Shown here in pieces: positions 24-5,236 of a stretch of DNA of 5,236 nucleotides. The stretch spans positions 1 through 5,236 of the forward strand of contig JAEOTK010000068.1 of the NCBI GenBank assembly GCA_016839875.1, written 5' to 3'. Numbering within the stretch: the stretch's first letter is position 1; each line of letters opens with the position of its first letter. The DNA is from Candidatus Heimdallarchaeota archaeon. Lineage in GTDB: Archaea > Asgardarchaeota > Heimdallarchaeia > Heimdallarchaeales > Heimdallarchaeaceae. The notes beneath the pieces were generated by a model. That model made no database searches, was not told the origin of the DNA, and was given only the letters and a program-made list of their open reading frames with translations. Made by a program: the position numbers and the translations under genes.

Positions 24-212
24 CTATTCTCCGTTGCCCCAACCAAATATTTCCCAGAATTGTCCTTCTGACCACCCAATTAAACTATAAACCAAACCAA
101 ATATGATGGCAAATATCAATATTGCTATTCCTATAAGCAAAATCTCCTCTAATATCGGACTACCTTTCCTATTTCTTATCCTAAAATATCTTAGTAATTC
201 AAGAACTAGCAT
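24..212 (-). CDS. Pilin-like miniprotein with class III (prepilin) signal sequence
   Basis: This gene encodes a 62-residue protein. The N-terminal leader of 17 residues is rich in basic residues and ends in RNRKG. It is followed by SPILEE and an uninterrupted hydrophobic helix of about 24 residues (ILLIGIAILIFAIIFGLVYS), then a short aromatic/Gly tail ending in GWGNGE. Lys-Gly before the cleavage point and Glu at position +5 after it are the hallmarks of archaeal type IV pilin/archaellin precursors processed by a PibD/FlaK-type peptidase. Cleavage after Gly17 would leave a mature product of only about 45 residues, far shorter than most pilins, so it may be a minor or assembly pilin, or a small membrane protein that has merely adopted the signal. 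I chose ATG at 212 because a TATA-like box lies about 30 nt upstream. An in-frame TTG at 221 would add three residues. The gene is divergent from the large membrane gene. No specific family was recognised. Confidence 0.7.
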   Translation of the reverse strand: MLVLELLRYFRIRNRKGSPILEEILLIGIAILIFAIIFGLVYSLIGWSEGQFWEIFGWGNGE

Positions 213-236
213 TATATTCAATATGATTACAAATTT

Positions 237-340: not shown

Positions 341-3300
341 ATGGAAACCAATAGCAAATCCTTTCAGGTACTAATAATTGTCCTAATACTGATATTTTCT
401 CCCCTTTGTTTAACAAGAGGATTTAGTAATTCTGATTCAACAATCCAATCAAAGTTATGTTCTTCCCTCAATCAAGAGATAACATATGATTATAACAGTA
501 CTTCTGGGGAAGAGGAATTTAATGTGTCGTGGAATAATCTAGAATTGGATTATTTCAATAGTATAACTTTGTCTTTCATCATTACAGGAGATGGAACTGA
601 TAGTTCAGGTATGAAAATTATTTTTAATATTAATGAAACCACAATTGAGTTTCTGATTGATTCTGTATATCAAGATCAAACAGTGCATGAAATAACCAGA
701 GCTTTTGAATATCCCCAACCATTTCTTGGTTCTACAAATATTACCATAATTTGTGAAGGCAATACCTACTTCTCCTCATGGTCAGGAACACTGACAATAC
801 TCACTAATACCAATATTGAACCTGTTGTAGTTCCACAAATTAGTGAAACTCCATTTTTCTTTCCAATTATTCCTGAGTCTTTTATGTTTCAAGGCTCACT
901 TTCTAAACTTAAACAAGTAAGCGTAATTTCAGCATTTTTTAATGATGAAGAGTTAGATAGATGTAATCTTACACTCGAATTTTCAAGTAATGATTTTGAT
1001 GCTCTATCTGAATATATTGAAATTGAGATAAATGGTTCAATTATAGAAACTAGGAATTTTGAGGAAGATTCTATAAACTCACACATATTTCTCTTACCAC
1101 TTAAATTAGGATTGAACGTAATTATTTTTCACTTTTCCATAGATATGTGTCTAAATATTGTAGAAATAAATAATATTCAGCTTTCTGGTTTTGCATATTC
1201 GCTTGAGAGTGCTGTTCCCACAAATATATTGGAATTTAAGCATTGGGTGGGAATGGGTATATCTTACACTTTTGATTTATCCTCATTAAAACCTCAAAGT
1301 AATAATCCAAGTCAAATATTACAAATTAACATTGATTATGGTTATATTGGGACAATTATTTCTCCTGCAATTGAATATTCTTTGCAGATAAATTCAGAAG
1401 AACTTGCTGAAGGAAGCATCTCAGCTGCAGAACAAACAAATCTTCCCAATTCATTAGAAATACAGACTTATACTAGTTTTTACCAATTTCCCCTAACCTT
1501 CAGCATAAGTGGAGACGCAGAAGGAGAAGGAATTTTTTACATACTTAATACAAGTAAGATTGAGATTAAACCAATTTCTGGTCTTTCAGAAGGTTTTCTC
1601 GAAGAAACTCTAATTTCTGAAGAAGTCATTACTACACCCGTTGCTGAACCTCGATTCTTGACTTTCTATGATGTTTTCTATTCTGATAATTTGGTTTCCG
1701 GTTATAACATAACTGTTTTTTGTAATCTCTCAAATGATTTGGGTACTCAAATAACATCCGAAATAACTCTAGAAATAGATAATACACTTGTCATTAATTC
1801 AATTGTTTTTACTGATAATAATGTGAATATAACTAGTAAAATTCCTCTATTATTTTCAGGTTATCATGAAGTAAAACTGATAATGACGATCTATGGAAAT
1901 GGTAATCAAGTTACAATCAAGAATCTGAAATATCAGATCACCTCCCATTCCCCTTCATCGTCAACTCCTCCAGATTTTCCAACGGATCCTATTGAGGAGC
2001 TTAATGGAGATATCAACACTAAAGAACCTGTTTCATTATCAAGAGCTTTTAGTTTAGGTATAGTTGGTTTATTTGATATTCTTGCTTTGGTTAGCTTAGT
2101 AGTAAGGAGTAACAAGAAGAAAAAAAGGATTTCAGGAATTATTGAGAACTTTGATTTAACAATTGATGGGCTTAATACTCAACAAGGGTGGCTCTCATCT
2201 TTTATCACTGATACTAAGAAACTGTTTTCTAGGGCAACCGAAACAGCCATCAAAGCGCTACTTTCATTCTTTTGTTTAGCTTATCTATTTGGAAAATACT
2301 TCTTTCATAACCAATTACTCAACAATATTTATTCTATTGCTGAAAAAGAACTGGGTTCAATTTCCTTTGTTTCTGGTGGAAACGCAGGTTATTTCCTTTT
2401 CTTCATCTTTCTTTGCATCTCAACTGTACCCTGGTATTCTATCATTATTCTTTCAACAAGTTCAACCTATTACGAAGATCAATTCTTCTTAGCAACGATT
2501 ATTGGTTTTCCTACAGTAATTGCTCTTCCTGTCTCGTGGGTGCTATTGATTTTCTATATATTCAGAAACACCCACAGCTTTGATTCTGGGTGGACTATTT
2601 TACTACCTCTCTGTTTTATCGCTCTCTATTTTCTTACTTTTAGGTTAGGGAAAGTAAAGGAAAAACAGCGTCTATCTGCTATTTTTGACTTTATAAGAAA
2701 AGGTAAAGTACCAGTAACGATGAGCAAACAAAGTGAAAGTAAACCACTTGCAGACATCGTGTCTGCAGAAGAAAACTATACTTCAAGACAACTAGAAGAA
2801 CAGAAAGGAAGAATACGGAATTTGATCATTACTGAAATTGATCATGCTCATCCTGTGCCACTTGAACGTTTTGCAGAAGCAGAAAAATTACCCTTAGATA
2901 TTGCAGAAAAACATCTAATGGAGATTTCCAATGAATCACCAAGCTTAGGAAAATACTATCGCTTGGAGAAATACTATGTTAAGAGCATAAAAAACGTGGA
3001 GATTGAGAATCAAGTAATAGTTAATGAAGAGGAACAATTAGAACGTAATACAGAAGTGCTTGCAGTTAAACCCAATCCTACCCAAGGATTAGATAGATTT
3101 GCAATTGAAAGAGACAGTGAAATTAATTGGATAGGTATAGTAAGACATCGCCCGGAACCTAGTGAGGGCTGGATTACTTTACCCGCTGAAATGAAAAATC
3201 AAGCAGAACTTGGAGAGGAGTATGATGTTTTTCTATTTGCAAAAAAAGGTGAAGAAGTAGCTTTCATAACAGACTTAAGGAAAAGTTCTGCAAACTCTTG

Positions 3301-5020
3301 GTTCCTCTATATCCCTGCAGCAATATGTTCGAAATCAAATCTTTACGGAAAAGAAGTAAGTGCTTTCATCAAGAAGCATAAGGAAAGTGAAGGATTTCCT
3401 TGGAAGAAGGAAGAAGATTTAGAAGAGAAAGAGATGCTTGAATGGAAAAAAACTAAAAAGGTTATTGAGTGGGAAGGAACAATAAGAAAAGGGAGTGGAG
3501 CTGGAACAGGATGGATTACTATTCCAACAGAATTAAGAGAATCAGTAGAACCTGGAAAAGTCTATGATTTGACCTTAATAGATTCTATGATGAGGACAAA
3601 CACTCTCACAGCTAAACTCTCCGCTACAGCAAAGGGATGGGGATTTTACATACCCAAAGCACTATGTTTGGAATACTCGTTAATAAGTGAAGAAGTTAAT
3701 TGTTATATTTACCAGATGGAGCATTTTCCAGTTAAAATCAGCGCAGATAAGATTGTACGATTACCTGATTCTGTTGTAGAGGAATATGAAATAAAAGAAA
3801 ATGACATATTTGAGGTGGAAGCAATAGTTGAGAGAGCAATATTCAAAGAAGTTGTTTTGATAACCAAAATAGATAGATCAAATAAGTCTAGAAATGATGA
3901 ATTTCTATTATTATTTAGATTGAGTGATGTTCCAAAATCAACAGATGCAAGAATTAGGATATTGAACAGTATTGATCAACTTCCTTCTGAATTAGTTGAA
4001 GAGGAAGACTATGAGACGTTTTATCTCCCCTCGATATTCCCAGATGCTATTTTAGGAAAGGTTGATGAGAATAGGATGATAATCTTCAAGGGAAACCATG
4101 TACCCATATTTACTCCAATTGAGGTTAATTTACTGGAGTTAATACATTACTTTGGATGTTATTATGCTGATGGAACAAAGAAAGGTTGGGCGTGGAGGAT
4201 AAATGCATCTACACCTGAGCAAGCAGTGTATTATATTGGAAAATACAATGAATTGATTTATGGTAATCGACTAGAATATAGATTAACATATAGTAAAAAA
4301 CCATCTGATAAAAGAACAAAAGCAAATACAAGATCTGATCTTATTAATTATTGGAAGAAAAACGCAAGTATTAATTTGATTGAAGACAGGATAAAACTGA
4401 GAGAAACAAAACATGATAATATTAGAAAGTGGAATAAATGTGGATCGTTAGGGATACGTGATAACAGAAATTTAGTTATGGAGGTTCATCTTCGAATACT
4501 GAATGAGATTATAGTGTATCTAAATACTTGCATTTATGATGAGTTAATATGGGAATTCTTGTTTGGAATACTAGAAGGAGATGGTACCGTTTCTGGAGGG
4601 AAGGGAAAATTTGGAATTGGATTTTCTTGTCATAAGGATGATAAGATTATTCTAAAGATGCTGAAGAGGTTGCATATTAAACATTCTGTGGATTTATCAA
4701 GACTAAAAACAGGAACTGGATCAAGTATACAAATAAACTTCTGGTTATTTGAAGTAATACTGAATCTTGAAATATTATCTAAAAGGTTATTCATTTTTTA
4801 TCCTAAAAGAAGAAGATTATTCATAGAGCGATTATTAAAACAATCAACCGTGAGATATTTAATGAAAAAACAATCAAATTTATCACCTCCTGCGAGATCA
4901 AAAATCCTTGCTTATCAATTGGATAATGAGACAATTATCAAGCTTCTAAATGAATTTCAAGATGAGTTAGAGCACATTTGTATAAATGAAGAAAGGTTAA
5001 GCAAAATTCTAAACAAATAA
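341..5020 (+). CDS. Giant exported-membrane protein with cytosolic winged-helix, AbrB-like repeats and LAGLIDADG domain
   Basis: This gene encodes 1559 residues in one uninterrupted frame. ATG at 341 is the first possible start, because an in-frame TAA lies at 335-337. Visible parts in order: hydrophobic signal sequence (about residues 9-25); beta-rich, Asn/Ser/Thr-rich extracytoplasmic region (27-534) with at least ten N-X-S/T sequons; Ser/Pro stalk (535-557); membrane helix 1 (568-588) followed by KKKKR; membrane helices 2-5 (about 634-654, 682-704, 714-741, 749-769) followed by KVKEKQR; winged-helix-like domain (822-882); AbrB/SpoVT-like units (926-1012, 1040-1126, half unit 1127-1178); and LAGLIDADG endonuclease-like domain (about 1258-1510). 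With the signal removed, five helices and the positive-inside rule place the ectodomain outside and the C-terminal half in the cytosol. Outside ligand and inside target are unknown. A membrane-anchored DNA-binding regulator or a signal-gated nuclease are both possible. The reading frame is confident; the function is not. Confidence 0.9.
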   Translation: METNSKSFQVLIIVLILIFSPLCLTRGFSNSDSTIQSKLCSSLNQEITYDYNSTSGEEEFNVSWNNLELDYFNSITLSFIITGDGTDSSGMKIIFNINETTIEFLIDSVYQDQTVHEITRAFEYPQPFLGSTNITIICEGNTYFSSWSGTLTILTNTNIEPVVVPQISETPFFFPIIPESFMFQGSLSKLKQVSVISAFFNDEELDRCNLTLEFSSNDFDALSEYIEIEINGSIIETRNFEEDSINSHIFLLPLKLGLNVIIFHFSIDMCLNIVEINNIQLSGFAYSLESAVPTNILEFKHWVGMGISYTFDLSSLKPQSNNPSQILQINIDYGYIGTIISPAIEYSLQINSEELAEGSISAAEQTNLPNSLEIQTYTSFYQFPLTFSISGDAEGEGIFYILNTSKIEIKPISGLSEGFLEETLISEEVITTPVAEPRFLTFYDVFYSDNLVSGYNITVFCNLSNDLGTQITSEITLEIDNTLVINSIVFTDNNVNITSKIPLLFSGYHEVKLIMTIYGNGNQVTIKNLKYQITSHSPSSSTPPDFPTDPIEELNGDINTKEPVSLSRAFSLGIVGLFDILALVSLVVRSNKKKKRISGIIENFDLTIDGLNTQQGWLSSFITDTKKLFSRATETAIKALLSFFCLAYLFGKYFFHNQLLNNIYSIAEKELGSISFVSGGNAGYFLFFIFLCISTVPWYSIIILSTSSTYYEDQFFLATIIGFPTVIALPVSWVLLIFYIFRNTHSFDSGWTILLPLCFIALYFLTFRLGKVKEKQRLSAIFDFIRKGKVPVTMSKQSESKPLADIVSAEENYTSRQLEEQKGRIRNLIITEIDHAHPVPLERFAEAEKLPLDIAEKHLMEISNESPSLGKYYRLEKYYVKSIKNVEIENQVIVNEEEQLERNTEVLAVKPNPTQGLDRFAIERDSEINWIGIVRHRPEPSEGWITLPAEMKNQAELGEEYDVFLFAKKGEEVAFITDLRKSSANSWFLYIPAAICSKSNLYGKEVSAFIKKHKESEGFPWKKEEDLEEKEMLEWKKTKKVIEWEGTIRKGSGAGTGWITIPTELRESVEPGKVYDLTLIDSMMRTNTLTAKLSATAKGWGFYIPKALCLEYSLISEEVNCYIYQMEHFPVKISADKIVRLPDSVVEEYEIKENDIFEVEAIVERAIFKEVVLITKIDRSNKSRNDEFLLLFRLSDVPKSTDARIRILNSIDQLPSELVEEEDYETFYLPSIFPDAILGKVDENRMIIFKGNHVPIFTPIEVNLLELIHYFGCYYADGTKKGWAWRINASTPEQAVYYIGKYNELIYGNRLEYRLTYSKKPSDKRTKANTRSDLINYWKKNASINLIEDRIKLRETKHDNIRKWNKCGSLGIRDNRNLVMEVHLRILNEIIVYLNTCIYDELIWEFLFGILEGDGTVSGGKGKFGIGFSCHKDDKIILKMLKRLHIKHSVDLSRLKTGTGSSIQINFWLFEVILNLEILSKRLFIFYPKRRRLFIERLLKQSTVRYLMKKQSNLSPPARSKILAYQLDNETIIKLLNEFQDELEHICINEERLSKILNK
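419..2038 (+). other. Extracytoplasmic region: four related beta-sandwich units
   Basis: Residues 27-566 alternate short hydrophobic strands with polar turns and contain almost no predicted helix. Four stretches (about 54-154, 182-285, 297-412 and 438-534) share a layout: a run of strands, a central strand of the kind IEIEINGSI or ITLEIDNTL, and a closing pair in which a Gly-containing turn leads into an Ile-rich strand (LGLNVIIF, STNITIIC, SGYHEVKLI). Units 2 and 4 resemble each other most. Sequons occur at N52, N61, N98, N133, N209, N231, N403, N456, N462 and N496, which suggests surface glycosylation. The fold looks like a carbohydrate-binding or adhesion-type sandwich, but no specific family was recognised. 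The homology between units is judged by eye. Confidence 0.55.
2042..2647 (+). other. Five-helix transmembrane region
   Basis: Helix 1 (residues 568-588) is followed by a KKKKR stop-transfer cluster and a cytosolic loop of about 45 residues. Helices 2 to 5 lie at about 634-654, 682-704, 714-741 and 749-769. The loop after helix 3 (STSSTYYED) would be cytosolic, and the loop after helix 4 (RNTHSFDSG) external. The last helix is followed by RLGKVKEKQR, putting the remainder of the protein in the cytosol. The helices contain no obvious transporter or channel signature. Confidence 0.75.
2804..2986 (+). other. Winged-helix-like domain
   Basis: Residues 822-882 form the pattern of a small helix-turn-helix with a wing. 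A first helix (GRIRNLIITEI) is followed by the HPVPLERFAEAEKL segment, a helix with PLDIAEKHLMEIS in recognition-helix position, and then a Gly-Lys-Tyr-Tyr turn with two strands (RLEKYYVKS). It sits directly after a charged, probably coiled segment that leaves the membrane. It could bind DNA or mediate protein contacts. The assignment rests on pattern only. Confidence 0.45.
3116..3874 (+). repeat. Tandem AbrB/SpoVT-like units (protein-level repeat)
   Basis: Residues 926-1012 and 1040-1126 are copies of one unit of about 87 residues. Each has a first half of the form W.G..R....GWIT(L/I)P.E(M/L)....E.G..YD and a second half of the form W.(L/F)YIP.A.C....L...EV...I. Unit 1 has GWITLPAEMK and SWFLYIPAAIC; unit 2 has GWITIPTELR and GWGFYIPKALC. 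Each half resembles the AbrB/SpoVT swapped hairpin (the G-x-I-T-I-P-x-E-L-R signature), so one unit could form a complete pseudodimeric barrel within one chain. A further half follows at 1127-1178 (VKISADKIVRLPDSVVEEYE, then IKENDIFEVE). The AbrB fold is a DNA-binding fold in archaeal and bacterial transition-state regulators and antitoxins. A very charged Lys/Glu linker (1013-1039) separates the two units. Confidence 0.65.
4112..4870 (+). other. C-terminal two-motif LAGLIDADG endonuclease-like domain
   Basis: Residues 1258-1510 carry two LAGLIDADG helices. The first is LLELIHYFGCYYADGTK (1263-1279), with the acidic residue at D1277. The second is ELIWEFLFGILEGDGTV (1401-1417), with the acidic residue at D1414. 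In this family these two aspartates coordinate the catalytic metals, and both are present. The motifs are 137 residues apart, a roomy but plausible spacing for a single-chain, pseudosymmetric enzyme. Each is followed by a beta-rich stretch (WAWRINAST and KFGIGFSCH) of the DNA-saddle type. A basic tail (YPKRRRLFIERLLK) follows. No intein splice blocks are seen. It may be an active nuclease or, as in the bacterial regulator WhiA, a domesticated DNA-binding module. Confidence 0.75.
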
Positions 5021-5032
5021 AAATTCATTTTT
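5019..5032. terminator. Overlapping convergent T-runs between the large gene and glmS
   Basis: The two stop codons are separated by only 10 bp (5021-5030). On the plus strand a T5 run (5028-5032) follows the large gene. On the minus strand a T5 run (A-run at 5019-5023) follows glmS. Each could end archaeal transcription, although each run overlaps the end of the opposing gene. No hairpin was found. Confidence 0.35.
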
Positions 5033-5236
5033 ACAATACAGTAATCGTTTTACTCAAATTTTTGGGAGTATCGACCGCACATCCTCTCTTCACAGCTGTA
5101 TAGTATGCTAGCATTTGAAGCGGTATCACATACGGTATTGTTGAGAACATTTCTGAGTATCCTTTTGGTATTTCCATCTTCCATTTCACCAATTCTTCTA
5201 TCTCTCTATCTCCTTCCTCCATTACAGCAATGCTTG
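5031..5236 (-). CDS. glmS: Glutamine--fructose-6-phosphate aminotransferase, C-terminal fragment (runs off window)
   Basis: Only the last 67 residues are in the window; the frame stays open to the right edge, so the gene is cut by the window and not broken. GlmS makes glucosamine-6-phosphate from fructose-6-phosphate and glutamine in the cytosol, the first step towards UDP-N-acetylglucosamine. The fragment is the end of the C-terminal SIS (sugar isomerase) domain. Recognisable features are the strand SIAVMEEGD, the helix region IPYVIPLQMLAYYTAVKRG, and the family's C-terminal tail DTPKNLSKTITVL, which aligns with DQPRNLAKSVTVE of E. coli GlmS. The tail Lys (sixth residue from the end) corresponds to E. 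coli Lys603, which contacts the sugar phosphate as a Schiff base. The final Leu replaces the usual Glu. The gene converges on the large membrane gene and shares no operon with it. Confidence 0.93.
   Translation of the reverse strand, partial: SIAVMEEGDREIEELVKWKMEIPKGYSEMFSTIPYVIPLQMLAYYTAVKRGCAVDTPKNLSKTITVL

Follow-up and report, generated by a model that had tools for sequence, protein, structure and literature searches.

A probable LAGLIDADG homing endonuclease element next to the glmS 3' end in Asgard archaea, fused in one branch to a membrane protein

The window analysed here (the whole stretch of 5,236 nucleotides from a Candidatus Heimdallarchaeota archaeon, contig JAEOTK010000068.1) holds one long forward frame of 1559 aa, in which a membrane receptor-like part is followed by a C-terminal module of 520 residues that we name ABL, for its AbrB-related barrels and LAGLIDADG domain. 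ABL is probably a free-standing LAGLIDADG homing endonuclease element that is directed at the 3' end of glmS and brings a new tail for this gene, the window copy being fused behind a membrane protein. This reading is drawn from the fold and the conserved acidic residues, the position of ABL, the existence of empty sites, an abnormal divergence of the glmS tail, old-tail remnants at some of the loci, movement from one lineage to another and broken copies.

Loci were compared by three markers, namely glmS, a glmU-like gene (PF00483 with hexapeptide repeats) and ABL itself. ABL is convergent to glmS, with a gap of 1-79 bp, in all 13 related loci that show both genes, and the window is arranged likewise; this count takes in a broken copy (L036, nearest fragment 18 bp off) and a remnant (L039). 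Wherever all three markers are in view (7/7 loci), ABL lies between glmS and the glmU-like gene, which share a strand; four loci (L001, L029, L034 and L038) show the glmU side only, and that of the window lies beyond view. Wherever an ABL locus shows glmS, ABL is the gene that adjoins the junction; it is also the sole gene of at least 90 aa between glmS and the glmU-like gene in L035, as well as from the glmU-like gene to the contig end in L029. Empty sites are found in the close clade, where all eight ABL-less loci showing both genes have them on the same strand and 44-63 bp apart, L068 being cut. Of five more distant ABL-less loci that show both genes, two have a gap of 34 or 47 bp and one has a gap of 1779 bp; in two, the genes lie on different strands. 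Furthermore, two genome records (G013 and G015) each contain one occupied and one empty locus. A 1.8-kb gap between glmS and the glmU-like gene was also seen in L074 (5422-7202), a locus of a genome with no detectable ABL, and tblastn with eight ABL proteins found nothing there.

The end of glmS itself is unusual in the clade that bears ABL. In 31 pairs of glmS from this clade, chosen for 80% identity or more across 500 or more bases and without L036, L073 and L077, the whole gene is 80-93% identical and the last 51 nt are 43 to 90% identical. This tail falls below every other comparison segment of the gene in 23 of the 31 pairs (median rank 0.000) and lies on average 25 points under the mean of the segments. 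In 15 control pairs from ABL-less clades (at least 75% identity), the tail stands 4.5 points above, with a median rank of 0.77. A lysine codon near the end of glmS, for a lysine that is catalytic in GlmS, is kept in 24/24 sequences. On the far side of the element, a putative old tail, read as [AS]VTVL-stop followed by a native-like spacer, stands 45-56 nt upstream of the start codon of the glmU-like gene in three of 11 occupied loci (L025, L032, L034), a distance close to the native spacer length; the six-frame background of this motif, taken over 317,896 codons from these loci with the real glmS ends counted in, is 15 hits. The cleanest pair opposes an occupied genome (G008) to an empty one (G009): the last eight glmS codons are recoded in G008, and TCCGTAACAGTTCTCTAATTAAATA, still present on its far side, agrees with G009 at 24 of 25 nt across the stop codon. 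The two G008 contigs overlap by exactly 127 bp inside ABL, which is consistent with one broken assembly path.

A GlmS-like ending was also found on the protein side. Eight of 130 distant ABL proteins (P0045-P0174) finish with [STA]VTV and no more than two further residues, a motif that occurs 0 times in 61,185 internal residues; among 410 complete open reading frames (ORFs) of the related loci, 19 have the same ending and all 19 are GlmS. Such a tail suggests that, in the distant group, the element inserted at glmS in the same direction, the old tail being in frame.

ABL has moved between lineages independently of its host gene, as judged from protein identities and trees. Between G012 and G024, GlmS and the neighbouring protein o271 are 89% and 88% identical, and ABL only 44%; between G012 and G005, the values are 77% for GlmS, 67% for o271 and 68% for ABL. 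Approximately unbiased (AU) tests, for which the groupings were picked after the identities had been seen, rejected two of them: on ABL, that of the hosts (G012, G018, G023, G024; p 9.7e-5), and on GlmS, the ABL-like one (G012, G005, G006, G022, G015; p 1.2e-70). The distribution is patchy: with the window as query, ABL was detected in 15/58 genomes of the class, one of them by a 31-residue match, and with the L031 protein in 14/227 genomes of the phylum. The L031 protein gave 62 protein matches and a profile built from 27 distant hits gave 129, with Hodarchaeales, Helarchaeota, Nanoarchaeota, Aenigmarchaeota and Patescibacteria among the source names of the matches listed. In 392 relatives of G001, the distant profile recovered the 14 genomes already known and eight more with weak partial matches (best E 1.4e-8), and a search of viral contigs, plasmids and phages found no ABL. 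Decay is also visible, through stop codons in L036 and L037, truncation of L032 and L037 and the remnant in L039; tblastn of eight proteins against 18 loci detected ABL remnants in L034 and L038 only. Judged by its gene neighbourhoods, ABL acts as a mobile element specific to one site; patchy, transferred and faced by empty sites, it does not resemble a resident, host-inherited single gene of WhiA type.

The fold agrees with an endonuclease. An earlier note on this DNA had read a single polypeptide with an ectodomain, membrane helices, a winged helix, AbrB-like modules and a LAGLIDADG domain, in that order; the ORF is real and the order holds. Structure prediction backs two of the folds that the note had named: the LAGLIDADG domain of the window protein is modelled with a pLDDT (predicted local distance difference test) of 93.9 and, by fold comparison, resembles the archaeal enzymes I-DmoI, I-Tsp061I and PI-PfuI as well as WhiA, and the barrels are related to AbrB by structure. 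The acidic residues of the two LAGLIDADG motifs are conserved, D1277 being present in 70/70 aligned sequences and D1414 in 67/70, the other three having a gap at this position. The N-glycosylation sequons in which the note had found the ectodomain rich are no more frequent than in shuffled sequence, and of the five membrane helices that it had counted, four correspond to clear hydrophobic stretches and the fifth is weak. Family searches returned little: neither Pfam nor NCBIfam gave a match over cut-off for the long window protein (P0001), on which PF04014 (AbrB/MazE) reached 11.6 bits for a cut-off of 24.7, and this same family is listed in the precomputed annotation of two ABL relatives (P0028 and P0126). 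PADLOC had no match for P0001, one stand-alone ABL and two receptor relatives, and a sequence search of solved structures gave nothing for P0001 and weak AbrB-type rows only for the distant ABL profile. A fold search with residues 1-925 was set aside, as it produced many beta-sandwich rows with template modelling scores of about 0.1 from a low-confidence model. As regards an intein or a group I intron, which would lie inside a reading frame or RNA and be spliced out, the ABL insert sits past the end of glmS, whose stop codon is intact.

The fusion of ABL to a membrane protein is not a one-off join, since it is met in other assemblies. Six further complete proteins (P0002-P0006 and P0008; 1417-1598 aa) and a partial one cut by a contig end (P0007) have the same domain order, four of the six (P0004, P0005, P0006 and P0008) without the extra barrel copy that is present in the window, L001, P0002 and P0003. 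L001, on a contig of a Heimdallarchaeota metagenome-assembled genome, is the sole related locus in named genome contigs; it is 69% identical over residues 1-1295, where its contig ends inside the LAGLIDADG domain. Between the window and L001, every segment is under purifying selection (omega 0.10-0.28), with 70 codons compared in the LAGLIDADG part. In G006 (L024), the receptor part and the remainder form two neighbouring frames, and stand-alone ABL proteins of about 500 aa are encoded in L029, L030, L031 and L035. The receptor-like part comes from a separate multi-copy family, of which many members have no ABL: residues 1-925 match in 22 of the 58 class genomes, up to eight times per genome (some matches being pieces of one protein), and the open frames reach 2352 aa. 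The membrane part may have been joined by accident and kept because of a function of its own, or it may control the enzyme.

Several observations on these proteins stand apart. Very large membrane proteins of up to 2351 aa (L040:9792-15302 and L081-L092) combine the ectodomain and winged-helix part of the window with different C-termini. No Pfam family exceeded its cut-off in the scans of L040, L041 and five more long receptor relatives, which took in six of these very large proteins; L040 has DUF6560 at E 1.9e-4, below cut-off. Comparing L024 with L025, synonymous divergence (dS) is 0.03 in the winged helix, 0.13 in the ectodomain and 0.79 in the LAGLIDADG domain, as if the endonuclease domain had been swapped. 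Finally, in the genome of the nearest named relative, contig G001:C26 (L100, L101) carries a 1463-aa frame with three LAGLIDADG_3 matches.

From these data, we infer a cycle in which ABL would insert at the 3' end of glmS, between this gene and the glmU-like gene and in the opposite direction. The endonuclease would cut an ABL-free glmS allele within its last codons, the invariant lysine codon among them, and repair off the occupied allele would copy in the ABL gene, any cargo and the glmS tail of the donor. The recipient glmS would be kept intact, its final peptide almost unchanged and encoded differently, and the old tail, now displaced, would stay on the glmU side. In a subset that includes the window, ABL is fused in frame behind a receptor-like membrane protein of the separate multi-copy family. 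That the protein cuts glmS, that it spreads by homing and what the membrane part may contribute are proposals.

Part of the evidence weighs against this scheme. The tail is not the lowest segment in eight of the 31 close pairs, and the pairs share sequences and are not independent, the two groups being moreover cut at different identities (0.80 and 0.75). No old-tail remnant is present in the other eight of the 11 occupied loci. Similarly, 122 of the 130 distant relatives have no GlmS-like tail, the link of that group to glmS being the protein tail alone, and none of 35 closer hits (P0010-P0044) has one, although its absence from the latter is expected where ABL is convergent to glmS. A simple co-conversion model also predicts that LAGLIDADG and tail similarities are correlated; the former does not track the latter beyond the similarity of the glmS body (partial Mantel test, partial r 0.06, permutation p 0.35, 10 genomes). 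The glmS tails may, moreover, have been shaped by a second element that is not in view.

The earlier note had proposed a one-component transmembrane regulator or a surface-gated nuclease, a guess from the domains, and the gene neighbourhoods point instead to a mobile element with a fixed site beside glmS. As a resident regulator, the protein would sense an envelope signal through its ectodomain and bind DNA through the barrels and the LAGLIDADG domain, as WhiA does, in order to control the adjacent amino-sugar genes glmS and glmU. This is unlikely for a module that is present in 15 of the 58 class genomes, is faced by empty sites among its near relatives, has been transferred between lineages, runs against the direction of both genes, exists as broken copies and as stand-alone proteins without any membrane part, and keeps both acidic residues in every sequence covering them. 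A nuclease gated from the surface and devoted to defence or programmed rearrangement would fit the fusion of a membrane and sensor-like part to a nuclease fold; given the lack of any PADLOC match for P0001 or the stand-alone ABL, and a location and transfer pattern that are those of a homing element, it appears extremely improbable.

ABL might also be a passenger, another integrating element using the glmS 3' end as a safe site in the manner of Tn7 and swapping the tail, and the LAGLIDADG protein doing something else. The glmS 3' end is the classic target of Tn7, according to the part of the source consulted (PMC11406308), and other genes are present in some intervals. We nevertheless hold this to be very unlikely: ABL, rather than another gene, is next to the glmS junction wherever glmS is in view and fills the L035 interval by itself, no transposase or integrase was detected among 10 neighbouring proteins scanned (part of the neighbours), and distant ABL proteins themselves bear the GlmS-like tails. 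Within the homing reading, a bolder version can be imagined, in which ABL is a natural home-and-rescue element acting on the C-terminal codons of an essential enzyme in archaea and some Patescibacteria, one branch being held in the membrane, fused after a receptor at the cell surface, and waiting for a signal from outside before it cuts, e.g., contact with another cell during which a new glmS allele can be met. We consider it speculative and rather improbable.

Several known systems share parts of this picture. The enzymes I-DmoI, I-Tsp061I and PI-PfuI have the same LAGLIDADG fold as ABL and two motif acids; they are borne by introns or inteins and are not known to have AbrB-related barrels in front. 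WhiA, which has the same fold joined to a DNA-binding part, is a resident regulator, unlike ABL, which is patchy and transferred and keeps both acids. Tn7 inserts downstream of glmS, whose end it is not known to replace, and differs from ABL by a transposase with TnsD/TniQ. Pfam detected no TnsABC or TniQ among the three ORFs of the window and 10 neighbouring proteins of related loci, which are part of all genes. The conserved 3' coding end of glmS, where ABL would act, is what Tn7 recognises, in the portion of the source available to us (PMC11406308).

The closest likeness is to the mobile ORFs (mORFs) of fungal mitochondria. In Glomus, those of atp6, atp9, cox2 and nad3, with atp6 of Allomyces as cited there, carry a foreign C-terminal coding end (sections consulted of PMC3630166). 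According to the same sections, an endonuclease ORF (of LAGLIDADG type in atp6) lies near the 3' end of the host gene, whose resident end is replaced by a divergent coding and persists beyond the ORF, giving a three-part layout of inserted end, ORF and native end (PMC3630166). ABL loci may share this layout, a putative old end being seen in three of 11. In the ABL-bearing clade, glmS likewise ends in a divergently coded, putatively foreign tail. ABL differs by its archaeal chromosome, its target glmS, its convergent orientation in the loci studied here, its AbrB-related barrels, its membrane fusion and the extra genes of some intervals. HeimM2 of Heimdallarchaeum is also a Heimdallarchaeal mobile element thought to integrate site-specifically via a homing endonuclease; it differs in sitting between the 16S rRNA and a tRNA gene and in having an enzyme akin to those of rRNA introns, glmS being unmentioned in the main text (PMC8813620). 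Engineered home-and-rescue drives, as outlined in the part of the source seen, follow the same logic of acting on an essential gene and supplying a working end (PMC7968924); ABL is natural, archaeal and based on a protein endonuclease, and may itself act as a drive. Titles and abstract openings of the papers listed on homing endonucleases, LAGLIDADG, Asgard and other archaea and gene drives describe no glmS homing element, and a search joining LAGLIDADG and AbrB returned no paper.

Elements that swap the end of a host gene along with the endonuclease are known from fungal mitochondria. A similar strategy seems to operate on archaeal chromosomes, at the same stretch of glmS that Tn7 recognises. 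Its trace can still be read, the last codons of glmS having a history that differs from that of the other codons. If this is true, ABL would be the natural equivalent of engineered home-and-rescue designs and would mark gene flow among the lineages of Asgard archaea. Its fusion to a membrane protein raises the new and testable question of how a homing enzyme might become linked to the surface of the cell. On the whole, the observation of the earlier note is partly confirmed and its interpretation partly supported; the homologue search and neighbourhood comparison that it had advised were run, and they showed the same domain order recurring and ABL sitting at glmS, in several genomes as its own gene.

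Table 1. Features of the window, with residues numbered along the 1559-aa protein.
Feature	Coordinates	Strand	Remark
Fused gene, 1559 aa, receptor-like part and ABL (barrels and LAGLIDADG)	341..5020	+	
Signal peptide or N-terminal hydrophobic segment, residues 4-30	350..430	+	hydropathy
Beta-rich ectodomain, residues 27-566	419..2038	+	
Membrane segment, residues 566-772	2036..2656	+	hydrophobic stretches: 4 clear, 1 weak
Winged-helix-like unit, residues 816-882	2786..2986	+	also in ABL-less relatives such as L040
Extra barrel copy, residues 945-1039	3173..3457	+	
Cradle-loop (AbrB-related) barrel, residues 1040-1126	3458..3718	+	ABL start
Second AbrB-like strand-rich part, residues 1127-1225	3719..4015	+	
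LAGLIDADG homing-endonuclease domain, residues 1226-1559	4016..5017	+	
First LAGLIDADG helix motif HYFGCYYADG	4145..4174	+	acidic D1277
Second LAGLIDADG helix motif FLFGILEGDG	4556..4585	+	acidic D1414
10-bp gap, ABL gene to convergent glmS	5021..5030	.	element/host junction
glmS 3' end, 67 codons in view, runs past the window	5031..5236	-	NCBIfam NF001484, E 5.7e-13, positions 538-600 of 601
Last 17 glmS codons, ending ...NLSKTITVL	5034..5084	-	abnormally divergent in the ABL-bearing clade

Extra genes in or beside the glmS-glmU interval (L025, L026, L032, L034 and L001) encode an ABC transporter with an FtsX-like permease, NosD beta-helix proteins, a leucine-rich repeat (LRR)-RING protein and a HEAT-repeat protein. 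Upstream of the glmU-like gene, where the element ends on that side, a conserved TATA-like stretch together with TTTTGAGT..AGTGAAA was found by pattern in eight of 11 loci (L025, L029, L030, L031, L034, L037, L038 and L001); it does not occur in the eight empty loci, and L038 has a second copy at 7459. This stretch may supply a promoter for the cut-off glmU gene, or might bind the barrels. Upstream of the long gene of the window, a small ORF of 65 aa (24-221, reverse strand) has a weak match to Pilin_N, the archaeal pilin N-terminal family (E 0.013, below cut-off).
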